A DNA stretch of 64,000 nt, from the NCBI RefSeq assembly GCF_018139545.1, contig NZ_JAGSPJ010000002.1, positions 496,001 to 560,000 of the forward strand. Reading direction: 5' to 3'. The stretch is from Affinundibacterium fentianense. Its GTDB lineage: Bacteria > Pseudomonadota > Gammaproteobacteria > Burkholderiales > Burkholderiaceae_D. The notes beneath the pieces were generated by a model. The model was not told the DNA's origin, did no database searches, and saw only the letters and a program-made list of their open reading frames with translations. Positions 9,223 through 41,511 of the stretch are shown in pieces (within the stretch, counting starts at the first letter, position 1; the number at the start of each line of letters is the position of its first letter). The translations under genes were made by a program, and so were the position numbers.

Positions 9223-9804
9223 TTAGCTCTTCGACAGGGCTTTCAAAGCGGCCTTGATGCCATCCGAAACACCTGATCCTGCTGGCACCAATTTCAATGC
9301 AGCCAAGGCTTCTTTATCAGAATAACCTAGCGCCAATAAGGCATTCAAGATATCCGAGCTATGATCACCCGCAGCGGCAGCCACACCAGCCGCACCCAAA
9401 TCAGCGCCCAGTTTACCTTTAAGCTCTAACAACAAACGCTCTGCGGTTTTCTTACCTATCCCCGGCACTCGCGTTAAGCGCCCAGCTTCTTGCAACGTTA
9501 TTGCCTGCGACAAATCAGCCACCGACATACCCGACAAAATGGATAAAGCGGTGCGCGCACCGACGCCACTGATTTTGATTAATTGTTTGAAAGTCGTTCG
9601 CTCTTCAGCAGTACCAAAACCAAACAACACATGCGCATCTTCGCGAATCGCCAAATGCGTCAGTAAAGCTACCTTCTCGCCCAGTGCAGGCAAATTATAG
9701 AAAGTGCTCATGGGCACATCGATTTCATAGCCAACGCCTTGGCAATCAACAAGGATTTGCGGTGGATTCTTTTCGATCAGGATTCCGGCGATGCGACCTA
9801 TCAT
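9223..9804 (-). CDS. ruvA: Holliday junction branch migration protein RuvA
   Basis: Tetrameric junction-recognition subunit of RuvAB. It begins with [20 protein letters not shown], the conserved family start, so the ATG at 9804 is chosen; the frame remains open for 28 more codons upstream but those residues do not look like RuvA. Domain I (OB fold), domain II with two HhH motifs ([13 protein letters not shown] and [17 protein letters not shown]), an alanine/glycine-rich linker and the C-terminal RuvB-binding domain ([16 protein letters not shown]) are in order. The protein is 193 residues. Confidence 0.96.
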
Positions 9805-24418: not shown

Positions 24419-26605
24419 ATGCCCGTCTATTCACGCCACCTTCTCATCATCACACTTCTAACGAGTATTTGCCTTTGTGTCGACACAAAGGCACAAGAAA
24501 TTCAAATCCCAGCAAAAAAGAATGATGGATCGAATACTCAAATAAAGACCCAACAAGTTGAGGTAAAAAGTAAAAGTGAAACTCAGCTTGCTCGGCGTGA
24601 TGCGGCTGCAAAAACGGTGATTACAAGTGAAGAACTTCAGCGCTTTGGTGACACAAATATTAACGATGCAATGAAACGTGTTCCTGGCGTTCTAGTTGTA
24701 AAAGATCAATTACAACTACCGGGAATGAATAGTAATTACACACAAATCTTAATCGATGGCGAACCGCCGCGCGGCATCACTATTGCCGATATTCCCCTGA
24801 ACACGATTGAACGTGTTGAAATTTATCGTGCAGGTAGCGCACAGTTCAGCAGTCAAGCGATGGCGGGAACAATTAACATCATCCTCAAACGAGTTCCCAA
24901 CAATCGCCAAGCCCAAGTCAAACTAAATGTCGCACATGGTTTCGGCAGCAACTACACCGTCGATTGGTTGAACTCGGATAAATTCGAGCGCTGGTCGTAT
25001 TCTATATCGGCCACAGCAGCCAAATTAGGCGGTCTAATGGCTGCGCCGTTTAGCTTTACGGACCAACTATTCGATGCAAAGGGACAACTCGTCCAAAGCT
25101 ATCAAGTTCGACAAAATCGCCAACTCACAGGGGATACACTACGAGTTAATCCGCGAATCCAATGGAAGACTGAAAATGGTATAGCTTTAACTTCGACCTC
25201 GTCACTAAACCACAACACCAGTCGTTTTAATAATGACGAATCATATCAATTCGATATCGGCCCAGTGCTTCCCTCTGCACACATCGTACGCAAAAATTTT
25301 TCAAAGAATCAAGCAATGAGTAGCTCCTTGCGTGCTGTGGGAAGCATAGGAAAAAATGATGCCATTCGCTTCGACATCAATACTGGTGTCAGTCGACGCA
25401 ATGCGAATTCCTACGGAGACTATTTATCTTATACACCGGATACCAAAGAAGACTATCAACGCTTCTTTCAGACCGACACGGTCTCGAATGGTTGGAACAA
25501 TTCTGGCAAACTGACAGCCCCCAGTCATACCGAACATGATATTGTGACGGGCTGGACGGTTTCCAATTCAGCGAATGTAAATAACCGGCATGAAACTCAG
25601 GTGAACAAACAAGTTGTATCAAGCACCCACACCGTGCAATTAACAGATAGTAGTATCTTTAAGTCCGCATTATTTGTACAAGACGAATGGAAATTTAGAA
25701 AAGAATCTTCCGCTTATTTCGGCTTACGTTGGGAGTCGATACAAATTCAAAGTGAAGGGAACATTCAAGAAAAGATGCGTCACCGTTCTAGCGTTTTAAG
25801 TCCAATTATCCAAACGCTGTGGCAACTCAATGCAGAGAATACAGACCGTGTCCGGCTAGGCCTATCCCGCACATATCAAGCGCCGTTCGATTTCTATCTT
25901 ATCTCTCCCATATTTAAGACCATCAATAATTCTATTTCTTCACCCAACTTTCGTGGAAATCCGAGTTTACGTCCCGAACTTGCATGGTCGATCGATGCAG
26001 CATACGAACACAATGGAAAAGATGAATGGAACTACAATATTCGTAGCAAACTACGCAGCATCAATGACTTACATCGCGAAGATGTTAGTTTTTATGACAA
26101 TGCATGGTGGCGCCAATTTATCAATGCAAGTCACGCAAATAGCTTCACGATAGAATTCGATACACAATTTCCCTTGAAACGTTTTTTCGACGATGCTCCC
26201 AATATCGACGTTGGTTTTGATATGAATCGCACGTGGTCACGCGTAGACTATTTGCCTGCACCGAACAATATCCTTTCGCCCAATCCATTCAATGCGAAAC
26301 TCAATTTAGATTACCGTGCGCAAGCACTTCCCCTTAGTCTAGGCACAAACATTCGCTATATGGGAAGGCATTGGCAGCAAAGTTCCAAAATCAGCAGAGA
26401 GTTTTCTGGAACGCCAGTTGAAATGGACATCTACGGTTTGTGGAAATTCAACAAGCAAACACAGATCAGAACCAGTATTGATAATCTATTTAAGCATCCT
26501 TACACTTATCTGACCGAACAACAAAACGAAGGCGCGATCTTCCGTTCAAATTTTTACAATCCAGCCATACGTACTATTTCTCTCAATCTCGAACATAAAT
26601 TTTGA
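24419..26605 (+). CDS. TonB-dependent outer membrane receptor
   Basis: 728 residues: signal peptide (1-26, ending TKA), a plug domain (about 60-165: VITSEELQRFGDTNINDAMKRVPGV, NTIERVEIYRAGSAQFSSQA, GTINIILK) and a 22-strand-type barrel ending in phenylalanine (SLNLEHKF), the BAM recognition end. It is an energy-dependent importer of a siderophore, peptide or other large solute. No TonB, ExbBD, sigma/anti-sigma pair or ABC importer is near, so the ligand is unknown. It precedes two small secreted peptides on the opposite strand. Codon use and base composition look more AT-rich than in the adjoining housekeeping genes. Confidence 0.9.
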   Translation: MPVYSRHLLIITLLTSICLCVDTKAQEIQIPAKKNDGSNTQIKTQQVEVKSKSETQLARRDAAAKTVITSEELQRFGDTNINDAMKRVPGVLVVKDQLQLPGMNSNYTQILIDGEPPRGITIADIPLNTIERVEIYRAGSAQFSSQAMAGTINIILKRVPNNRQAQVKLNVAHGFGSNYTVDWLNSDKFERWSYSISATAAKLGGLMAAPFSFTDQLFDAKGQLVQSYQVRQNRQLTGDTLRVNPRIQWKTENGIALTSTSSLNHNTSRFNNDESYQFDIGPVLPSAHIVRKNFSKNQAMSSSLRAVGSIGKNDAIRFDINTGVSRRNANSYGDYLSYTPDTKEDYQRFFQTDTVSNGWNNSGKLTAPSHTEHDIVTGWTVSNSANVNNRHETQVNKQVVSSTHTVQLTDSSIFKSALFVQDEWKFRKESSAYFGLRWESIQIQSEGNIQEKMRHRSSVLSPIIQTLWQLNAENTDRVRLGLSRTYQAPFDFYLISPIFKTINNSISSPNFRGNPSLRPELAWSIDAAYEHNGKDEWNYNIRSKLRSINDLHREDVSFYDNAWWRQFINASHANSFTIEFDTQFPLKRFFDDAPNIDVGFDMNRTWSRVDYLPAPNNILSPNPFNAKLNLDYRAQALPLSLGTNIRYMGRHWQQSSKISREFSGTPVEMDIYGLWKFNKQTQIRTSIDNLFKHPYTYLTEQQNEGAIFRSNFYNPAIRTISLNLEHKF

Positions 26606-26843
26606 ATTGGTATTTATCCTGAAAAAAGCTGCATCGGATGGTTGAGTGGACCCAATATAGTTATTTTGGTGCTGCCGCTTCAATCTGTTATTGAAGGAGG
26701 CGATCGAAAGCGTATCGAGCAATGCTTTGTACAAGCAATATTTTTTTAGTCAAACAACGGTATTCACAAAGCTGAATTTTCATTCTGGTCTCGTACTGAG
26801 CTGGATAATGTTCGAAAACTGATTGCACAATCTGTTGACATCC

Positions 26844-26912
26844 AAGACAACGAACAACCACATTCAAACCTCAAAAAAAAATAAGACGCCCGATGAGGCA
26901 CATCGGGCGTCT
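26844..26912. repeat. Copy 1 of a duplicated terminator module
   Basis: This segment (AAGACAAC..., CATTCAAACCTC, A-rich spacer, hairpin) is repeated at 28151-28214 with few changes. The two copies bracket the small peptide genes. Both have the same orientation. Confidence 0.7.
26884..26912 (-). terminator. Intrinsic terminator of the small secreted peptide genes
   Basis: Perfect 12-base stem AGACGCCCGATG/CATCGGGCGTCT with a five-base loop, followed on the minus strand by TTATTTTTTTTT. It lies 60 bases after the stop of the promoter-distal peptide gene. Confidence 0.85.
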
Positions 26913-26971
26913 AAACAACAATTTAGCTAACAAACTTTGTGTCTTATGAGAATGTAATTGTGATAGTCATT

Positions 26972-27190
26972 TTAAGACTTACAGTGGAGAGTCTCTGTGT
27001 ACATTTTTGCCGTCACTTTTCCCCAACTACTAAATTTCCCATCGCAGCTCAAAGTTTTCCCGCCGACTGCTTTACCTTTTGAATCATAGTAAGTTATTTG
27101 AAATGGTTGAATCATTATTGCATACGCAAAAGTGGCGCTTAGGCTTAAAACTGCGACTAAACTAGTTACAATCGTTCTATTTAACTTCAT
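26972..27190 (-). CDS. Small secreted peptide, paralogue 1 (DUF6289-like)
   Basis: 72 residues: a clear Sec signal peptide (about 1-22, KLNRTIVTSLVAVLSLSATFAYA) and a mature part of about 50 residues with two cysteines. The mature core ITYYDSKGKAVGG...SCDG..SSWGKVTA...C is shared with the neighbouring gene. The pattern YYD-x-GK-VVG-x-C-G-x-WG-x-T-x-C resembles the small DUF6289 proteins, recalled from memory and not searched. The ATG at 27190 is preferred over an in-frame TTG two codons upstream. It follows its paralogue after 29 bases and is followed by a strong terminator. Function unknown. Confidence 0.8.
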   Translation of the reverse strand: MKLNRTIVTSLVAVLSLSATFAYAIMIQPFQITYYDSKGKAVGGKTLSCDGKFSSWGKVTAKMYTETLHCKS

Positions 27191-27219
27191 TCTCAAATTT
27201 CCAAAATAAGACTATCTAT

Positions 27220-27435
27220 TCAAAAACATGGATCGCTTTCTGAGGAATACTGTGCTGTTTGTTTTCCCCATTTACTAATACCACCACCGCAACTTGTATA
27301 GCTGCCACCCACTACTTTTCCTTTTGAATCATAATAAGTCGTTCGAACACTTTGGGAAGGTCTTGCGTATGCAAAAGCGGCGGCTAAACTTACGATAACG
27401 ACCAAACTAGTACCTATGACTTTATTCTTCTTCAT
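27220..27435 (-). CDS. Small secreted peptide, paralogue 2 (DUF6289-like)
   Basis: 71 residues with a signal peptide (1-24, ending AFAYA) and a mature part of about 47 residues: TTYYDSKGKVVGGSYTSC...SKWGKQTA...DPCF. Two cysteines about 29 residues apart could form one disulfide, or an intermolecular one, after export. It is the upstream member of the pair; GGAG eight bases before ATG 27435 is a good ribosome-binding site. The signal peptides differ more than the mature parts, which suggests selection on the mature peptide. Function unknown. Confidence 0.8.
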   Translation of the reverse strand: MKKNKVIGTSLVVIVSLAAAFAYARPSQSVRTTYYDSKGKVVGGSYTSCGGGISKWGKQTAQYSSESDPCF

Positions 27436-28150
27436 CTTAAAATCTCCAAATTAAAATTAGTTATTCACTCAGGTTGTCTCACAACTTCAATTTCGCATTG
27501 TTCGACTAAAGAACAATATGTAATCAAAGGAAGCAATGCAATCACCCGCTTAGAGTAACCCTACATCGCATCGCGAATGAATTAGCTCGGTTTACGCTTT
27601 TTTATACAAAGGCGTTGCGTTATATCTTGTGATGTGATTTTTTCAAAAAAACACGCTGGGTTTGTGTGTATTTTTTTCAATTCCGCAATTTTTAGATTTG
27701 GCTTTTGATAAGCTCGAAATATCGGCCTGTTTTGACATTAAGAAGGAATTAATTGCAAACGAATTACAATCGATTATGCGACAAGCAAGTTTGTTATAAA
27801 TTGATTGGGTGGGTCGATCGACTTATGGTGTCGTCTCAAATTTGATGGATTTAAATTCAAGCTATTTTATACGTATCAGCAATTCGACTACTGCACACAA
27901 GATTGATAACGTCGGCACTAACTGAGTGCACAATTCGTATACTCCGACCGAATCAACATAGCTCATCTCGTCTCTCCTGCATGACCGTAGTATCGTTGAT
28001 ATAAAAAAATAGACGAGCCACAACTTTTATCCAAATGGCTGCCGTGGCGAATTGAAAGAGTCACTATCACTTTAAAAAGAAAATTTAAAATGACTACCTC
28101 TCTTCTATCTATTAAAGGAATAAAACTGATTACACTATCGATTGCCTCAT

Positions 28151-28214
28151 AAGACAACAAAGGCAACATTCAAACCTCGAAAACAAAACGCCCGATGAGA
28201 TTCATCAGGCGTCT
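28151..28214. repeat. Copy 2 of a duplicated terminator module
   Basis: Shares AAGACAAC, CAACATTCAAACCTC, an A-rich spacer and the hairpin ACGCCCGATGA...TCATCaGGCGT with copy 1 at 26844-26912. The hairpin stem has one mismatch here. Confidence 0.7.
28188..28212 (-). terminator. Intrinsic terminator of the M20 amidohydrolase gene
   Basis: Stem ACGCCtGATGA/TCATCgGGCGT with a three-base loop and one mismatch, followed on the minus strand by TTTTGTTTTC. It lies about 80 bases after the M20 gene stop. Confidence 0.65.
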
Positions 28215-28290
28215 ACGCTACACTGCTTGCAGTCAACTCTTTACAAGATTACTCAACTATATACTTTCTCATTTCAAAAAATGATCACAA

Positions 28291-29646
28291 TCATTTTTTC
28301 ATCAAGTCCAACAAGGCAAGCACGCTAGCCTCAATTCCCGCGCGAACGGCTGGCTCTGGGGTAATTTTAAATATTGGGCTATGGTGCCCTGGCACCGCAG
28401 GTCCGCCTTTTTTCTCATTGTCAAAATCTTCCTTAGGTGTACCTCCAATCGAGAAATACACACTTGGAATATAAGGTTCACTGACAAAAAAGGGAAAATC
28501 TTCCGCCCCCATTCCATCTCGCATTTTTGGCGCAGCAAATGCTTCTTTACCTAACTTATCAGTCCACACTTTTTTCAAGCGTTGAGTTAAGGGAATATCA
28601 TTCAAAGTCGGTGGCGTTGGCGTATCGACCTCCACAACCTCAGGCAAAAGATTTTCAGGTAGACCGGCTGCTCTACCTGTATTGATCGCGACACGCTTAA
28701 TTGCAGACAACAGCAAAGCACGTGTTTCCTTGCTTTCGCTACGAACACTCAATTGCAGTTTCGCCTGATCAGAAATGATGTTGGACTTTGTCCCTGAATG
28801 GAATGAACCTACCGTAATGACAGCAGGCTCTCGAGGTGCAACTTCACGAGTCACAATCGTTTGCAGCGCCATGACAATTTGTGCACCAATAACGACTGGA
28901 TCTTTTCCTAAATGCGGATAAGCCCCATGTGTCCCTATCCCATGTACTGTAATCTCGACGGTATCAACACCGGAATACGGCGAGCCTTCTTCAGCCGTAA
29001 TTTTTCCGGCCTCTGAGCCAGAATCAACATGGAATGCCAAAGCATACTTGGGTTGTCCAAACCGTTTCCAAATTTGGTCCTTCATCATCAGCGCAGCACC
29101 TCCTACTCGCTCCTCAGCAGGCTGACCGACCAACATCAGCGTGCCAGTCCATTGACTCTTACGAGCCGCCATTTGGACCGCGGTACCGACCAAACTCGTA
29201 ATATGAACATCATGCCCACAGGCATGCATTACATGTTGTAATTTGCCATCTGGATCTTTTTGCTGAACCTTCGATGCGTAGGGCAAACCAGATTTTTCCT
29301 CAAGCGGCAACCCATCCATATCTGCGCGCAACATCACCAATGGTCCGGGGCCGTTTTTGAGCATCGCGACCACACCGGTCTTCCCCACACCCTCGGTCAC
29401 TTCAAATCCCGCCGCACGCAATTCCTTAGCCAAACGGGCTGAAGTATTCACTTCCATAAACGATAACTCTGGATTTTGATGGAAGTATTCAAATAATGGC
29501 TTTAGTTGCGCGTTATAGTTTTTCGCAATCGCCAATTTCAACTCATTGTCGGCAGCAAGACTTGGCTGACTCAATCCACAAACCAACGCAACAGCGAAAT
29601 AAATTGGTCGCAAACGAGTTTGCGACATAAAGAAATTTGGTTTCAA
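28291..29646 (-). CDS. Exported M20 family amidohydrolase/peptidase
   Basis: Metal-dependent amidohydrolase of the M20D (hippurate hydrolase / IAA-amino acid hydrolase) group with an N-terminal Sec signal (ending PSLA). Metal and catalytic motifs: HQNPELSFME, MLRADMDGLPLEE, MHACGHDVHITSLVG, QPAEERVGGA, the dimerisation segment GIGTHGAYPHLGKDPV and GHHSPIF at the end. The start is set at TTG 29646, because AGGAG lies seven bases before it; ATG 29628 would leave the same signal peptide, and ATG 29664 is also in frame but overlaps that ribosome-binding site. It likely deacylates N-acyl amino acids in the periplasm. Confidence 0.88.
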   Translation of the reverse strand: MKPNFFMSQTRLRPIYFAVALVCGLSQPSLAADNELKLAIAKNYNAQLKPLFEYFHQNPELSFMEVNTSARLAKELRAAGFEVTEGVGKTGVVAMLKNGPGPLVMLRADMDGLPLEEKSGLPYASKVQQKDPDGKLQHVMHACGHDVHITSLVGTAVQMAARKSQWTGTLMLVGQPAEERVGGAALMMKDQIWKRFGQPKYALAFHVDSGSEAGKITAEEGSPYSGVDTVEITVHGIGTHGAYPHLGKDPVVIGAQIVMALQTIVTREVAPREPAVITVGSFHSGTKSNIISDQAKLQLSVRSESKETRALLLSAIKRVAINTGRAAGLPENLLPEVVEVDTPTPPTLNDIPLTQRLKKVWTDKLGKEAFAAPKMRDGMGAEDFPFFVSEPYIPSVYFSIGGTPKEDFDNEKKGGPAVPGHHSPIFKITPEPAVRAGIEASVLALLDLMKK

Positions 29647-29899
29647 ATCAGCTCTCCTGTACATCGATGATCAAACGAATGACGTTCACTTCGCGATCGA
29701 AGGTGTCAACATTAAAAGCCTATTGTGCCTGATCTCCGTATCGAGCCAAGTATTTTCAATGGGAACGGTCTGTGGATATGGATGGGATACAACAAACAGC
29801 GCAAACCTCATGAAAATCGAAGTAAAAATGCTAGTGTGTTATTCAAGTTTCTGCATTCCTTACAAAGCGAAGCCACTTCATCGTCTGCTCTGTGTCGTC

Positions 29900-33883: not shown

Positions 33884-35284
33884 CTAAACTGGAAGAATCA
33901 GACTTACAGTCAGACCACCACTGTCACGATTATTGAGACTTATCCGACCTCCGTGTGCTTCGATAATCTCACGAGCCAAAGCAAGTCCAAGGCCAGTTCC
34001 ATGACGTTTGGTTGAATAAAAAGGCACTAGGGCATTCGACATTACGGTATCACTCATTCCACTCCCCGCGTCGCTGACTTCAATCTTCAGTCCATCAAAG
34101 ATGGGCTTCACCTCCAAACTAATGGCGGCAGGATCGGATCCCGACTCCAAGGCATTTTTCAGCAAATTAAGTAAGGCCTGCTCCATTTGCGCTAGATCAA
34201 ACGCAACCTCCGCCTCTGGCAACTTACCGACAACTTGAAATTGCATCTGAGACTGCAAACGGCCAAGAAAATCTTGCCAACTCGTCGTCTCGTAGCGCGG
34301 TGTCGGCAATTTGGCAAATCGGGCATAGCCGTGAATAAAGCTCTCCAAATGTTGTGCTCGCTCTTCTATTGTCTTCATGATTTCAGGCAATCGTTCGTAC
34401 TGGCCTCGCTGTATCAGAGCGGTAGCAGAATTCGCAAGAGACGCAACAGGTGCTAAGGAGTTATTCAATTCATGGCTAATCACACGAATGACTTTTTTCC
34501 AGGTCTGCACCTCTTGTCGGCGCAATTCAACTGTCAAATGCCGAATCAAAAAAAGTTCGTGTTCGGTGCCATTCAATATGAACACACGTCGAGACAAATG
34601 ATAGATGTCATCTTCACCATCATGCTCCTCGACATTGTCATCTTGATTTTGCTTGATCTGCGCAGTAAATAAGCCGTCACCGCCCTGCGCAATCGCCTCC
34701 CGCAATGAATCTGACACTTGTCGAAGTATCTGCTCAAGCGTATTTCCTTCTAATTTTTTGCCATGATTAAGCAATTGTCTGGCATTGATATTGGCAAAAA
34801 CGATGTGCCCACGCACACCAACCAGAAACATCGCCACCGGTGAATTTTGTAACATGCTGTCTAATAGCAATTCCCGTTGCACCAAATCGAGTCGCTGTGA
34901 CCGCAATACTTCACCCAATGCATTATGCGCATCAACCAATTCCGCTAACTCGTCATTCCGCGACCAATTCAAACCAAAAGAAAAATCTCGGTCTTGATAA
35001 CTGAGTACCGTCCCGCTCATTGCACGAAATAATTCAAGAATAGGGGCGAGTTGCGCGTGTAAAAGAATCACACCAATCGGTGTCAGCACCAACAAGATTG
35101 CCAAGGCAATGAACCAAATAAGATCAGGAAAGAAATGGCTCAACGCCACAACGCTGGCTAAACCTGACAACAATAAGCCTGCCAGCAACAAACCAAAGCG
35201 TGCCAACAAAGGAATACGGACGCCTCTCTGATTTTTGATATCGGATGGAGATGTGGAAATTGTAGGAATAGTGGGATTGTTCAT
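33884..35284 (-). CDS. NtrY-like membrane sensor histidine kinase
   Basis: 466 residues: two membrane spans (about 25-49 and 55-76) with almost no periplasmic loop, a HAMP-like linker, a PAS domain (about 140-200), HisKA with the phospho-acceptor H271 in RVISHELNNSLAPV, and an HATPase domain with the N box (NLLKNALESG), G1 (VSDAGSGMSD) and G2 (HGTGLGLALAREI). The short extracytoplasmic part suggests that it senses the membrane or the ABC complex itself. It is the last gene of the operon, 100 bases after the NtrC-type response regulator, which is its expected partner. Confidence 0.9.
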   Translation of the reverse strand: MNNPTIPTISTSPSDIKNQRGVRIPLLARFGLLLAGLLLSGLASVVALSHFFPDLIWFIALAILLVLTPIGVILLHAQLAPILELFRAMSGTVLSYQDRDFSFGLNWSRNDELAELVDAHNALGEVLRSQRLDLVQRELLLDSMLQNSPVAMFLVGVRGHIVFANINARQLLNHGKKLEGNTLEQILRQVSDSLREAIAQGGDGLFTAQIKQNQDDNVEEHDGEDDIYHLSRRVFILNGTEHELFLIRHLTVELRRQEVQTWKKVIRVISHELNNSLAPVASLANSATALIQRGQYERLPEIMKTIEERAQHLESFIHGYARFAKLPTPRYETTSWQDFLGRLQSQMQFQVVGKLPEAEVAFDLAQMEQALLNLLKNALESGSDPAAISLEVKPIFDGLKIEVSDAGSGMSDTVMSNALVPFYSTKRHGTGLGLALAREIIEAHGGRISLNNRDSGGLTVSLILPV

Positions 35285-35384
35285 AAACTAGCCGTTGCTT
35301 GCTTGGATTATGCGAATAAAACACGGATATTTCTTACCAGCGAGGGCTGTCATCTTCAATACAGAAACGAAAATTTAACTCCGT

Positions 35385-36731
35385 TTACGAAGGGGACGAA
35401 CGAGAAATATTCAATCTTTCCATGCGACGGTAAAGTGCCTGACGACTCAAACCCAAGTCCGATGCGGCCTGTGCGACAACGCCCTTGGCATGTATTAATG
35501 CCTGCTCAATTGCTTCTTTGTCGGGCTCGCCGTCTGCACTGCCCAAGACCAAGGATTGCTGTGGCAAACCCAAATCACTCGCTTGGATTTCATCGGCTGG
35601 AGCGAGCAAGCAAGCGCGCTGCATCGCATTTTTTAATTCACGGACATTTCCTGGCCAAGAGTGGTTCAGTAAACTCGCAATTGCCGCTTGGCTAAAGGAC
35701 TTACTTTCATCTTTAAAGGCATGCGCAAGTGGCAAAATATCATCAGGTCTCTCGGATAAAGGTGGCAAATTCAATTGAATCACATTGAGCCGATAAAACA
35801 AATCTTCTCGAAATTTTCCCTGTTTGATCATACTCGCTAAATCGGCATTCGTGGCACTCAACACCCTTACTTTCACCTGCCGCTCTTTGTTCGATCCAAG
35901 TCGTTCAAATCGTCCTGTTTCCAAGACGCGCAAGAGTTTCACCTGTCCAGCCAACGGCAGATTACCGATCTCGTCAAGAAATAAAGTGCCGCCATCGGCC
36001 GCTTCAAATTTTCCTTCGCGCGCTTTACTCGCGCCTGTGTATGCTCCAGCTTCCGCACCAAATAATTCTGCTTCGATCAATTCAGCAGGAATCGCTCCAC
36101 AATTCAATACAACAAACGGGCCGTCTTTGACCTTCGAATTCGCTTGAATAATCGCTGCAATACGCTCTTTGCCCGCGCCATTTGGTCCCGTGATCAAAAC
36201 TGATACATCCGATTTAGCGACCTGACACGCCATTCCCAGTACCCGTTCGGTTGCCATATCTTCCCAAACATAACCAAGTAAATCATAGCGCGCTTCGAGC
36301 TCACGTTTTTGCTGCTTTTCACGCCGTACTTTGTTTTGTAGACTACGATTTGCCTGTCCCAATTCAATCAGATTTTTCACTGTTGCAATCAGCTTTTGAT
36401 CATTCCAAGGCTTAGCTAAATAATCGGCGGCACCCGCCTTAATCAAATCCACGGCGGCATCCAAATGCGTCCACGCAGTCAAGAGAATGACCGGCAAATC
36501 TGGATGCGCGCTGCGAATTTTCTGAAACAACTCCACACCTTCAGCACCGGATGTAGTGTCTTCACTAAAGTTCATGTCTTGAATCACCAAATCGATGACT
36601 TGTTTCTGCAGAATCTGCAATCCCTGCTGTGGTGATTGTGCGGTCACACTTCGGATATCGTGCAAAGACAAGAGAACGTCGAGCGCGATCGCTATGCTAG
36701 GATTGTCATCAATAATTAAAACTGTAGGCAT
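35385..36731 (-). CDS. NtrC-family sigma-54 response regulator
   Basis: 448 residues: receiver domain with phospho-acceptor D52 (VIQDMNF), a sigma-54 AAA+ domain (about 155-385) and a Fis-type HTH (about 408-440, GVVAQAASDLGLSRQALYRRM). The AAA+ motifs deviate slightly: Walker A is GPNGAGKE in place of GESGTGKE, and the sigma-54 contact loop reads GAYTGA (229-234). Walker B FLDEIGN and WPGNVRELKNA are standard. Phe-to-Tyr in this loop is known to be tolerated, so it should activate sigma-54. It lies in the operon it probably controls, behind a sigma-54 promoter at 41553-41568. Confidence 0.93.
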   Translation of the reverse strand: MPTVLIIDDNPSIAIALDVLLSLHDIRSVTAQSPQQGLQILQKQVIDLVIQDMNFSEDTTSGAEGVELFQKIRSAHPDLPVILLTAWTHLDAAVDLIKAGAADYLAKPWNDQKLIATVKNLIELGQANRSLQNKVRREKQQKRELEARYDLLGYVWEDMATERVLGMACQVAKSDVSVLITGPNGAGKERIAAIIQANSKVKDGPFVVLNCGAIPAELIEAELFGAEAGAYTGASKAREGKFEAADGGTLFLDEIGNLPLAGQVKLLRVLETGRFERLGSNKERQVKVRVLSATNADLASMIKQGKFREDLFYRLNVIQLNLPPLSERPDDILPLAHAFKDESKSFSQAAIASLLNHSWPGNVRELKNAMQRACLLAPADEIQASDLGLPQQSLVLGSADGEPDKEAIEQALIHAKGVVAQAASDLGLSRQALYRRMERLNISRSSPS

Positions 36732-36857
36732 GGAGAATCACTGTTTTCGTTTGTATCGATCGTTTCGTTCTGATAATTCGGTTTGTTCCGCGAAGAGGGA
36801 CATTAGCGAGCATGTCAGTTGACTTCACCACGCTGGAACAAACACCAAACAAGGATA

Positions 36858-38108
36858 TTACACTACACCACGGGTCGCAGTGGCAGGTGAGATACTAGCG
36901 GCACGCCACGCGGGAGCATACACGGCAAATATCCCCAAAATCCAGAAAATAAAAGGCGCAATGAACAAATAACTCAGTGGCAATTTACTCAACTCAAATT
37001 GACTTACCAATACTTGATTCAGGCCAAGTGCCAGCGCTGTTCCCACCACAATACCGCTGCTCGTGATCAAACAATTCTCTGTAAAAAAATATACCAGTAT
37101 ATGTATACGGCTTGCACCCAGAGCGCGGCGAATACCAATTTGCTTTTGGCGCTGCGCAACCCACAATGAACTCATTCCGACTATGCCTGATGCGGTCACG
37201 ACAATCAGCAAAAGACTGACCGTTAACAACATCCAAGCCAATCCTTTTTCACTACGATAGCGGTCAATCCGCATGTCTTCCATCGTCAAACTTTTAACAT
37301 TCACGGGTGTGGTAGAAGCCTTACGAAGTGCTTCCTCGACTTCCTTGATCACGCGATCACGTTGACCTGGTTCCGTTCTAACCGCGTAACCAAAATAGGG
37401 ATCATTCGTCAAACGAACCGGCGAAAGTAGCGAATACTCGCCGCTTTCATCACTTTGCGCACCGGAAGTTTGCAAGCGTTCAACCACCCCAACTATCCTC
37501 AGAGACTGTGCCCCCTCTCCAGTTCCTTGAAAAAATTCCTTACCAACAAATTGACTTTCACCTGGAAATAATTTCTCCGCCAATGCTTTTGAAATAATCG
37601 CAGTCTTGGGAAAATCACGTGAGGCATTAACATCAATTTCCATAAAGTCTTCAGGTTTGAAATCACTTCCTTCTACCAATCGCAAACCCCATGTTTGAAT
37701 CAAAGAATCCGGCGAGAAAAACATTCCCGCAGTCGCTGTGCTATTTGTCTGACGTCGATCTGCTGCCATTCCGCTATTACTACCGGACCGCGAAACAGGA
37801 AAAGAATTGACCCGCGCAACCGACACCACGCCAGGAACCGCGCGAATCGTTGCAGCCTCACGTTTTTGCATCGCAATTTGATCTTCATGCCCTCCCATCT
37901 TTTGATTGCTGATATTGACGCGAAAGCTATTGAGCTCTTCTGCAATTCCACTCGGGCGATTTGCCGCATCCAAACGCAAGTTGACAACATACAAGGCATT
38001 CACCAGCATCGCTAAACTGAGTGCAACTTGAATCGCAACCAGTAAAGGTCCTGTTTTATTGCGTAACATCGCCGAAAGGATAGGACGAACTTCGAATAGT
38101 GTTTTCAT
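36858..38108 (-). CDS. MacB/FtsX-type ABC transporter permease (second)
   Basis: 416 residues with the MacB architecture: one N-terminal membrane span (about 18-42), a large periplasmic domain (about 45-280) and three C-terminal spans (about 285-400) forming the FtsX domain with RRALGASRIHILVYFFTENCLI. There is no ATPase domain, unlike MacB itself; the ATPase is a separate gene. It starts 23 bases after the first permease gene, and the two are related but clearly different, implying a heterodimeric membrane unit. Confidence 0.88.
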   Translation of the reverse strand: MKTLFEVRPILSAMLRNKTGPLLVAIQVALSLAMLVNALYVVNLRLDAANRPSGIAEELNSFRVNISNQKMGGHEDQIAMQKREAATIRAVPGVVSVARVNSFPVSRSGSNSGMAADRRQTNSTATAGMFFSPDSLIQTWGLRLVEGSDFKPEDFMEIDVNASRDFPKTAIISKALAEKLFPGESQFVGKEFFQGTGEGAQSLRIVGVVERLQTSGAQSDESGEYSLLSPVRLTNDPYFGYAVRTEPGQRDRVIKEVEEALRKASTTPVNVKSLTMEDMRIDRYRSEKGLAWMLLTVSLLLIVVTASGIVGMSSLWVAQRQKQIGIRRALGASRIHILVYFFTENCLITSSGIVVGTALALGLNQVLVSQFELSKLPLSYLFIAPFIFWILGIFAVYAPAWRAASISPATATRGVV

Positions 38109-38131
38109 GAAATTTCCTTATTGATTTTTGC

Positions 38132-39445
38132 TTATTGAAGTTTCAATTGAATCGCTGGAGTCACTTGGCAAGCGCGCCAAGTTGGTAATAGGCCAGCTAA
38201 GATTGCGGCCCCAACCGACATTAAGAATGTCAGGCCCAACATTTGCCAATCCATGTGGGCGACTGCTGCTAACGCTCTCGATTGCATCGCAATTAACTGC
38301 AAAGCGCCTAACGCAAGAACGACTCCAACAATCGCGCCGACTAGACCCACGACGGCAGCTTCAATCAGAAATTGTGAAAAAATCTCACGACGCGATGCGC
38401 CCAAAGCGCGACGCACACCGACTTCAGAAGCACGCACTGAAAATTTCGCCAGCAACAAACCTATTGTATTCACCAAGCAGAGCAGCAAAAATCCAAACGC
38501 CAACCATGCTGAAATTTTACTGTCATCACCAATCAACTTACGTTCGATCAACCATTCTCGAACATTAAAGATGCGATTCGGGGCGTGACGTGGAAACCGA
38601 CCGAGTTTTTGCTGTTCACTGACATAGTTATCCAAGTAACTTTGCAATTCCTGACGTTGCGACGCCGACTTCAATTCAAACCAAAAGTGGAACCAAGTAC
38701 ACTCAGAATCCAATAAAGCTTGCCAACCAGGTTCGCGCGAACTCGAACAACTCATACTTCCAGAATGGGGAGTCTCACGGCGAATTGCATTACTCAAAGG
38801 AATAATAAATTCATCCTCATTTGAAAATGCTCCAGAACGCCCATTGTAGATAAAGAATCGAGGTTGTGACTTCCAGTCATTCATCACGCCAACGACGGTG
38901 TAATCACCATTCATCATGCGTACGCGCTGTCCGACCGGATTGACATTGCCAAATATTTTTTCTGCCATCTTTCGATTGAGAACCACCACATCTGCAGCCG
39001 CGTTATCTTCACTCGCTTGCCAAGCTTGTCCATATAAAAATGGGACATCTAACATAGCAAAAAAGTCCGCACTCGCGGCAATTCCATCCATTGCCATGGC
39101 ACCAAGCTCTTTACGTGCTGGCTCAACAATGGCATTGATCCCGTACATCCCTGCTCGGCGCTCTCCTTGCTTACTCTTAAGCAGCGCTTGCACATCTTTA
39201 TAAGTTAATTGATGGTCGACATAACCTTGTCCGGGTACATAGCCTTCTTTTGGATTCACATCGACGGTAAGGCTGAGTAAGCGGTCGCTCTTTTGGGGAA
39301 TAGGGTCGCCAGACATGACATGCAAGATGGTCAATGTCGAGACACTGGCGGCAACGCCAATTGCCAAAATAAGTACCATCAGCGCAGTCAACGCTGGGTT
39401 ACGCCGTAGACTTTTCACGCCAAGCATAAAGTAATACTGAAACAT
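38132..39445 (-). CDS. MacB/FtsX-type ABC transporter permease (first)
   Basis: 437 residues: N-terminal span (about 18-42, ALTALMVLILAIGVAASVSTL), a periplasmic MacB-PCD-like domain (about 45-300) and three C-terminal spans with VRRALGASRREIFSQFLIEAAVVG. The MacB-like periplasmic domain is thought to couple ATP use to lateral motion of the adaptor (mechanotransmission) rather than to form a substrate channel through the bilayer. GGAGAT lies before its ATG. It follows the ATPase gene by 27 bases. Confidence 0.88.
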   Translation of the reverse strand: MFQYYFMLGVKSLRRNPALTALMVLILAIGVAASVSTLTILHVMSGDPIPQKSDRLLSLTVDVNPKEGYVPGQGYVDHQLTYKDVQALLKSKQGERRAGMYGINAIVEPARKELGAMAMDGIAASADFFAMLDVPFLYGQAWQASEDNAAADVVVLNRKMAEKIFGNVNPVGQRVRMMNGDYTVVGVMNDWKSQPRFFIYNGRSGAFSNEDEFIIPLSNAIRRETPHSGSMSCSSSREPGWQALLDSECTWFHFWFELKSASQRQELQSYLDNYVSEQQKLGRFPRHAPNRIFNVREWLIERKLIGDDSKISAWLAFGFLLLCLVNTIGLLLAKFSVRASEVGVRRALGASRREIFSQFLIEAAVVGLVGAIVGVVLALGALQLIAMQSRALAAVAHMDWQMLGLTFLMSVGAAILAGLLPTWRACQVTPAIQLKLQ

Positions 39446-39472
39446 TGGAAATCTCCTCGTCTACCGCACTGA

Positions 39473-40201
39473 TTAGGCAATGTGTAAATTGCTTGGGCTT
39501 GCATTATGATCAACGACCAAACTGGGCGATTTACGCACCAAGTCTGAAACCTGACCATCGATAATATGAACATTTCGTTGTGAACGTAATGCCAATTCTG
39601 GATCATGTGTGACCATCAAAATCGTTGTGCCCCGCGCGTTAATTTCTTCTAACAATTCCATCACACTGCGTGCCATCTGAGTATCGAGATTACCTGTTGG
39701 TTCGTCTGCCAACAACAGGCGAGGTGAACCAGCTAAAGCGCGCGCAATCGCAACCCTTTGTTGCTGACCTCCCGACAATTCGGCAGGATAATGTTTCATT
39801 CTGGAAGACAATCCGACTTGCGCCAATGCGTCCTCAATCCTTTCTTTCCGCTCTTTCGAAGCTAATCCGCGATAACGTAAAGGTACATCGACGTTATCAA
39901 ATAAATTAAGATCAGGAATTAAGTTAAATCCTTGAAAGATAAATCCTAATTTTTCGTTGCGTAATCGCGTCCTTGCATTGTCATCCATGCCAGTCACATC
40001 CACGCCATCCAAAATATACTCGCCACCGGTGTAGTCTTCGAGTAAGCCCGCGATATTTAGAAAGGTCGTTTTACCGGAGCCAGATGGTCCGGTGACAGTA
40101 ACAAACTCCCCCTGCTTGACATGAATTTCAAATCCGCGCAAAGCGTGCGTTTCTATCATGTGAGTTCGATATACCTTACTGAGATTTTTCATGTGCAACA
40201 T
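39473..40201 (-). CDS. ABC transporter ATP-binding protein, MacB/LolD type
   Basis: 242 residues with all ABC motifs: Walker A GPSGSGKTT, Q-loop FIFQGFNLIPDL, signature LSGGQQQRVAIARAL, Walker B LLLADEPTGNLD and H-switch MVTHDPE. The N-terminal KVYRTHMIETHALRGFE is typical of the MacB/LolD subfamily, which powers tripartite efflux pumps or lipoprotein release. It should drive the two permeases downstream in the same operon. Confidence 0.93.
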   Translation of the reverse strand: MLHMKNLSKVYRTHMIETHALRGFEIHVKQGEFVTVTGPSGSGKTTFLNIAGLLEDYTGGEYILDGVDVTGMDDNARTRLRNEKLGFIFQGFNLIPDLNLFDNVDVPLRYRGLASKERKERIEDALAQVGLSSRMKHYPAELSGGQQQRVAIARALAGSPRLLLADEPTGNLDTQMARSVMELLEEINARGTTILMVTHDPELALRSQRNVHIIDGQVSDLVRKSPSLVVDHNASPSNLHIA

Positions 40202-40242
40202 ACGATGTCCTTTGTCCTTTTCGTTTTTTCCGAGATTGGAAA

Positions 40243-41511
40243 TTAGTTATTTAATGTGATTCTCTCTGCGTTTTCGAACTGATCTGTTCCTGCGACAACA
40301 ACCTTCTCACCCAGCTTCAAGCCATCCACAATCTCTACAGCTGAAATGCTGGTTGCCCCCAATTTAAATGACCGGCGGATCGCAACATTGTTTTCGACAA
40401 CATAGACAAATCGACCGCCTTCGCTCTCCACAAAAGGCCCTCGACTTAACATCAGAACATTGGTTTTTTCCTCGATTAGCAAGCGTGCAGAAACGCGCTG
40501 ACTCTGACGCAAACCTACAGGCTGGGCACCATCAAATCGAACACGTGCCAGCACTTGATTTTTCACCACTTCGGGCGAAAGCGCCGACAATTTTCCGCGT
40601 GCTGTGATGCCATTGATCGTGATCTCGGCTGCCATTCCCAATCCTAAATCGGCGACGTAAGTTTCAGGAATTTCGAGTTCAACCTCAAGTTGAGACAAGT
40701 CGACCAAAGTCATCAGCGCTGTATTCGCCGCCACCACGCTGCGGTTCGCAACAGAGAGCGTTCCGACCATGCCATCGACTGGAGCTTTCAGTCGCAACTC
40801 TTCGACTTTACGTTTGGCATCATCACGGACGAGTCGTTGTTGTTCAAGTTGGGCAACTTTAGTTTTCAAACTCAGATCAACATCTTCGCCTTCGAGCTGT
40901 GTCGCTGCGGCCGCATGCTTTGCCCGAATTTCCGCCGTCTTCAACGCATCTTGCGCTTTGGCATAATCAATTTTTGAGATGACCCCAGTTGGGCCCGCAA
41001 TCTCATAACGCTCAAAAGTTCGTGCAGCAGTGATGCGTTCAATTTCCGCTTGATCGGCATCTCGCTGCGCAATCAATTTTTGTTTACGAGCCAAAATACG
41101 TTGACGCGAGACTTCCGCTTCGAGTTGATCATAAATCGCTTGTTCACGCTTTAGTAAATTGCTGAGATCAGGAGACTCAAGTTCGGCCACGACATCACCT
41201 TTCTTGACCATATCGCCCGCTTTGACCTTGAGTGTTACCGTGCTCGATGCGGTGGAAAATAAAGTAGGACTAATTGCCGCCACCATACGACCATTGACAG
41301 CGACGTCGCGTACCAAAGTACCCCGTGTGACCTGCGCAATTTTTATACGCGCACTATGAATAGATTTACTATTTCCGGCATATGCCCGCACCAAAGCAAC
41401 GCAGGCAATCAAAAAAGCACCCGCCACAAGGCAGCCAAGGATGAGTTTTTTACGCCGCCACACTGGGACTTGTGCGATCACGGCATCTTGTCCTGAAGTA
41501 TCTCGAATCAT
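40243..41511 (-). CDS. HlyD/MacA-like periplasmic adaptor of the ABC efflux system
   Basis: 422 residues: N-terminal membrane anchor (about 23-44, KLILGCLVAGAFLIACVALV), a lipoyl half (TLKVKAGDMVKKGDVVAELESP), a coiled-coil hairpin (about 110-230), the returning lipoyl/beta-barrel (RLKAPVDGMVGTL) and a membrane-proximal domain (VVENNVAIRRSFKLGA, EIVDGLKLGEKVVVAG). It bridges the inner-membrane ABC complex to an outer membrane TolC-type channel, which is not encoded here. It is the first gene of the operon, 42 bases ahead of the ATPase gene. Confidence 0.92.
   Translation of the reverse strand: MIRDTSGQDAVIAQVPVWRRKKLILGCLVAGAFLIACVALVRAYAGNSKSIHSARIKIAQVTRGTLVRDVAVNGRMVAAISPTLFSTASSTVTLKVKAGDMVKKGDVVAELESPDLSNLLKREQAIYDQLEAEVSRQRILARKQKLIAQRDADQAEIERITAARTFERYEIAGPTGVISKIDYAKAQDALKTAEIRAKHAAAATQLEGEDVDLSLKTKVAQLEQQRLVRDDAKRKVEELRLKAPVDGMVGTLSVANRSVVAANTALMTLVDLSQLEVELEIPETYVADLGLGMAAEITINGITARGKLSALSPEVVKNQVLARVRFDGAQPVGLRQSQRVSARLLIEEKTNVLMLSRGPFVESEGGRFVYVVENNVAIRRSFKLGATSISAVEIVDGLKLGEKVVVAGTDQFENAERITLNN

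Follow-up and report, generated by a model that had tools for sequence, protein, structure and literature searches.

A tandem pair of DUF6289 genes in Affinundibacterium fentianense encoding small, apparently secreted two-cysteine proteins

DUF6289 (PF19806) is a catalogued, uncharacterised protein family with representatives in six phyla and a confidently predicted fold, for which a literature search by name and accession found no paper. Its members, as read by eye, are short and apparently exported. Those of the Streptosporangiaceae and the Myxococcaceae have a core in common with the gene pair described here, the latter being mostly lipoprotein-like, unlike the pair. With respect to structure, the nearest described proteins are the beta-prism (jacalin-type) lectins, part of whose prism is resembled by the four-stranded sheet of DUF6289; these matches are weak and non-significant, the DUF6289 domain is about one-third of the size of such a lectin and no sequence similarity between them was found. 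The present pair lies in a 64,000-nucleotide stretch of the Affinundibacterium fentianense genome (hereafter the window), and a search of the genome identified no further copies, as a result of which the pair offers a clean deletion target for probing the role of the family. The features of the locus are listed in Table 1.

Table 1. Features at and around the DUF6289 gene pair (positions counted from the first nucleotide of the window)
Feature	Position	Strand	Remarks
TonB-dependent receptor gene, convergent neighbour	24419-26605	+	PF07715 (Plug), E 2.1e-16
Left direct-repeat copy flanking the pair, 99 bp	26815-26913	.	76% identity to 28122-28215; ends in terminator-like site
Intrinsic-terminator-like site past the pair	26884-26912	-	12-bp stem, T-run
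DUF6289 precursor 2, 72 aa from ATG	26972-27190	-	ORF; PF19806 match
DUF6289 precursor 1, 71 aa	27220-27435	-	ORF from ATG; PF19806 match
Right direct-repeat copy, 94 bp	28122-28215	.	Holds terminator-like site 3' of M20 gene
Terminator-like site 3' of M20 gene	28186-28214	-	Within right repeat copy
M20 peptidase/amidohydrolase gene, upstream neighbour	28291-29664	-	PF01546, E 2.3e-25

A preliminary description of the window had reported two adjacent paralogous secreted peptides resembling DUF6289, with a shared core, diverged signal peptides and cysteines about 28-30 residues apart. Both open reading frames are present on the minus strand and the core YYDSKGK-VGG...SC...WGK-TA is common to the two proteins. 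An apparent Sec signal peptide with AYA at its end, judged by eye as was the cleavage site, occupies residues ~1-24 of each precursor and supports secretion; the mature parts would comprise about 47 residues in precursor 1 and 48 in precursor 2. The cysteines, however, are Cys49 and Cys70 in both precursors, a spacing of 21, and it is the signal regions that are the closer (15 of 24 residues identical, whereas the mature parts share 23 of 47). For precursor 2, the version given by the ORF caller has 74 residues and begins at a TTG at 27196.

Gene 2 begins 29 bp past gene 1, the ATG of each is preceded by a Shine-Dalgarno-like stretch (TTGGAG and TTGGAA, respectively), and the two genes are likely to be carried on the same transcript. 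Self-comparison of the DNA revealed a tandem repeat of 206 bp with 67% identity (27017-27222 and 27262-27467), which spans the gene together with its ribosome-binding region, so that the latter was included in the duplication. Pairwise Nei-Gojobori estimates for the pair are 0.39 for dN and 1.26 for dS. A promoter scan gave 5 sites against 5.1 in shuffled sequences and hence did not locate the promoter of the pair.

The likeness to DUF6289 was borne out by the Pfam HMM search, in which the proteins encoded at 26972-27190 (E 1.4e-12, 48.1 bits) and 27220-27435 (E 3.2e-11, 43.8 bits) both exceed the gathering cut-off of PF19806 (27.3 bits) and cover its 43-position model almost wholly. These E-values are beyond chance and, by this sequence criterion, the pair is a member of the family; NCBIfam returned no match. 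DUF6289 matches were identified in 8 of the 43 genomes of the genus, in 9 of 195 genomes of the taxonomic family (8 over the cut-off) and in 5 of 398 genomes of the phylum sample (4 over the cut-off), own genome counted in each. When the genome collection was scanned with a motif that required the first cysteine, VG and a tyrosine but left free the second cysteine and the second glycine (Gly35), 47 stretches were retrieved, from the Pseudomonadota, Myxococcota, Actinomycetota, Cyanobacteriota, Acidobacteriota and Chloroflexota; at least one of these (L113) looks spurious on translation and another (L090) ends short of the second cysteine. The genomes that had yielded 29 of these stretches were checked with Pfam: 24 matched, 22 of them over the cut-off and covering all six phyla, and 5 did not. 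The distribution is patchy, yet it extends across six phyla. Side-by-side pairs also occur in Massilia (L068) and in two Nonomuraea (L134, L129), two Brevundimonas (L093, L100) have divergent pairs that were detected solely with a home-made profile, and one Nonomuraea genome carries 6 copies. The product of gene 27220 shares more identity with a Calothrix protein (59%, over 49 columns) than with its tandem partner (51%); since only 3 of the 42 inner branches of a 45-row tree are well supported and the tree is largely unresolved, no transfer event is claimed for this gene.

Conservation was assessed in 45 aligned rows selected from 76 (74 collected and the window pair; L090 was among those left out). 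All 45, both window proteins included, retain the same two cysteines and two glycines, a count in which 19 rows derive from the motif scan that itself demanded part of this core (first cysteine, VG); Tyr12 and Val20 are nearly invariant. Fixed cysteines and glycines amid mostly variable positions would be in keeping with a binding scaffold, but the variability might just as well stem from weak constraint. In size, signal peptide and the two cysteines the window proteins resemble the other members read. They differ in carrying a short D-S-K-G turn where the commoner form has an S-D-A-x-x-T turn, and in their net charge of +3 and +4, the mean for 71 family domains (the 74 collected minus 3 with the motif misplaced or the gene cut) being -1.6 with 51 of them negative. 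A simple pattern finds a lipobox-like site in 8 of the 9 distinct myxobacterial rows, from which it follows that the domain would act there outside the cytoplasm while anchored. Many actinobacterial members (including L073, L095, L112, L129 and L134) possess an extra N-terminal cysteine pair that is absent from the window proteins, and its presence suggests a second disulfide in those members.

AlphaFold models of the whole precursor 27220 (18 rows; mean pLDDT 81.8) and of the mature protein 26972 (45 rows; mean pLDDT 86.3) both have four strands, with block means of 95-97 for residues 31-70 of the former and 83-95 for residues 11-50 of the latter, and the fold is confidently predicted to be a four-stranded beta sheet. 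Taking the genes, their family membership and duplication, the apparent signal peptides and the conserved cysteines as established from the sequence, we consider that the pair has about an even chance of encoding Sec-exported, disulfide-stabilised beta-sheet binding domains that act in the envelope or outside the cell. The duplicated genes would be transcribed together from upstream of 27435 to the terminator-like site past the pair; the precursors would be exported through the Sec pathway and cut after AYA; oxidation outside the cytoplasm would then join Cys49 and Cys70 in one disulfide, closing the predicted sheet of ~47 residues. The mature proteins may stay in the envelope or be released, and would act by binding a partner (a protein, peptide or glycan) rather than by catalysis or membrane lysis. 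Amongst the roles put forward in the preliminary description, that of an envelope-associated ligand appears to fit best, while those of a toxin or bacteriocin and of a diffusible signal are weakened. Its observations are partly confirmed and its interpretation is partly supported.

The TonB receptor and M20 genes on either side provide the genomic context of the pair. No other copy comparable to the flanking direct repeat was found in the genome. In six relatives the M20 gene comes after a phosphatase gene with no DUF6289 gene at that junction, the two genes being directly adjacent in L040, L060 and L064 and separated by one or two TonB receptor genes in L061, L063 and L065; a seventh region (L062) is not among the six counted. 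The site with its flanking repeats would fit an insertion or a duplication that took place in this lineage, and within the window the genes are an ordinary uncharacterised accessory pair, at a site that is empty in the six relatives. In L040 (G132), a different DUF6289 gene (9378-9647) adjoins the other flank of the orthologous M20 gene.

The genes flanking DUF6289 were surveyed at 62 loci, which remained from 87 (86 and the window) after 25 had been dropped as second views of one place or near relatives. Scoring covered 114 of the 115 flanking genes, one gene of 2318 aa being left out for its size, and the genes were also compared by all-against-all BLAST. Genes were called by a simple in-house rule that takes the longest open frame and, where the DNA is GC-rich, filters on third-position GC; some neighbours are therefore missed or wrong. 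No Pfam family recurs in more than 4 of the 114 genes: in a tally of the first 25 of 180 families, in which the matching member is not specified, Plug accounts for 4 genes, beta-barrel and regulatory-like domains for 3 and the others listed for at most 2. In the lack of a recurrent partner, the flanking genes provide no positive functional lead for the binding reading.

Other roles were weighed against the same body of evidence. A Sec-exported bacteriocin or contact toxin directed against relatives, the tandem copies representing two specificities, would agree with small, cationic and apparently secreted window proteins and with a patchy distribution of duplicated and diverged copies. The positive charge, however, is not conserved in the family, and the net-negative majority, together with the anchored appearance of most myxobacterial forms, argues against it. 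The preliminary description had noted the absence of an adjacent immunity gene, and none is recognisable: six small intergenic ORFs are without a Pfam match above the cut-off and the one at 27963-28169 is without a homologue in the 41 other genomes of the genus, although an immunity gene might be present in unrecognised form. Neither plasmids nor viral contigs contained relatives of the window protein, a relative's protein likewise had no match in plasmids, phages and viral contigs (both searches reach close relatives only), PADLOC gave no match and PHROGs gave a single match at chance level (E 0.18). A literature search on secreted bacteriocins of Undibacterium found nothing pertinent. We regard this role as quite unlikely. 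Small secreted peptides with two cysteines, encoded by tandem paralogues, could also serve as a diffusible extracellular signal, which is the least probable of the roles considered: TonB receptors apart, the 114 neighbours contain any given family of receptors or regulators at most twice, the gene is patchy within one genus (8 of 43 genomes) and a diffusible role sits poorly with the anchored look of the myxobacterial forms. Both roles are disfavoured relative to that of an exported binding domain.

A role as an accessory factor of surface peptide scavenging, for instance as an inhibitor or cofactor of an exported peptidase or as a ligand of a TonB receptor, draws on the neighbourhoods in Undibacterium and in the Pseudomonadota at large. 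The Undibacterium copies adjoin TonB receptor and M20 genes in the window, the M20 gene in L040, a gamma-glutamyltranspeptidase gene in L053 and TonB receptor genes in L059 and L058, where an S9 peptidase is encoded one and two genes away, respectively; 5 of the 9 Undibacterium loci are thus beside or near such genes. According to a home-made profile, 5 of 30 pseudomonadotal loci have a TonB receptor gene as an immediate neighbour (the window, L049, L058, L059 and L104), or 4 independent ones since L058 and L059 have neighbours in common. At a receptor frequency of ~1% of genes (the present genome, of 4.2 Mb, has 37 plug matches; gene number assumed), 0.6-0.7 such loci are expected. Finding 4 then has a Poisson P of 0.003-0.006, rising to 0.019 under an expectation of 1.0, values that are optimistic because the pattern was noticed after looking. 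Against this, some genomes hold up to 120 TonB receptors, 5 of the 7 receptors used to build the profile adjoin these very DUF6289 genes, most of the receptor genes converge on their DUF6289 neighbour and none was seen beside such a gene outside the Pseudomonadota. Moreover, M20 is found twice among all 62 loci, both times as the same orthologous gene, and the pattern was not seen at the other 4 Undibacterium loci (L041, L054, L057 and L066), the neighbours of L057 being genes for a sodium/proton exchanger and a type VI secretion FHA protein. The neighbourhood is suggestive, and a scavenging role is on balance unlikely. It has also to be considered whether the domains are single-sheet relatives of the beta-prism lectins and, perhaps as oligomers, bind glycans. 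Lectins of this class provide the best Foldseek rows (RbmC, E 0.24, probability 0.89; WGA16 lectin, E 0.41, probability 0.99, TMq 0.65) and stand at or near the top in VIA-align (Z 3.7 and 4.5), but no solved structure falls below E 0.2 in Foldseek or attains Z >= 5 in VIA-align. Similar scores go to Cry1Ac (Z 4.5) and to norovirus P domains, so that the likeness is no more than a lead. Small beta sheets are prone to match widely, no sequence match among solved structures supports the relationship, and this reading is highly improbable. A sequence search of the solved structures gave 5 rows, the best of which, a nanobody at E 0.19, was taken as a chance match. A wider picture, in which DUF6289 comprises widespread single-sheet, disulfide-containing binding domains that are possibly lectin-like, move laterally and are placed in the envelope, with lipid anchors in the myxobacteria and with TonB receptors or exported peptidases as neighbours in Undibacterium, would be very speculative. 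In U. macrobrachii (L059, 7034-9424), the TonB receptor gene beside the DUF6289 gene is apparently split into two adjacent open frames.

The preliminary description had further pointed to a MacAB-like exporter with its own two-component system in the vicinity. This is right in substance, while no link between the exporter cluster and the DUF6289 pair was found: the exporter genes start at 36858, and M20, PLD-like, cobalamin-adenosyltransferase and other genes lie in between. The leaders of the two precursors, as read by eye, are Sec-like and end in AYA, and do not represent the combination of a GG-type leader with an adjacent exporter; as the precursors carry such signals, the exporter is probably irrelevant to the pair. 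The cluster itself (33884-41511) encodes an HlyD-type protein, an ABC ATPase, two MacB/FtsX-type proteins, a sigma-54 response regulator and a histidine kinase.
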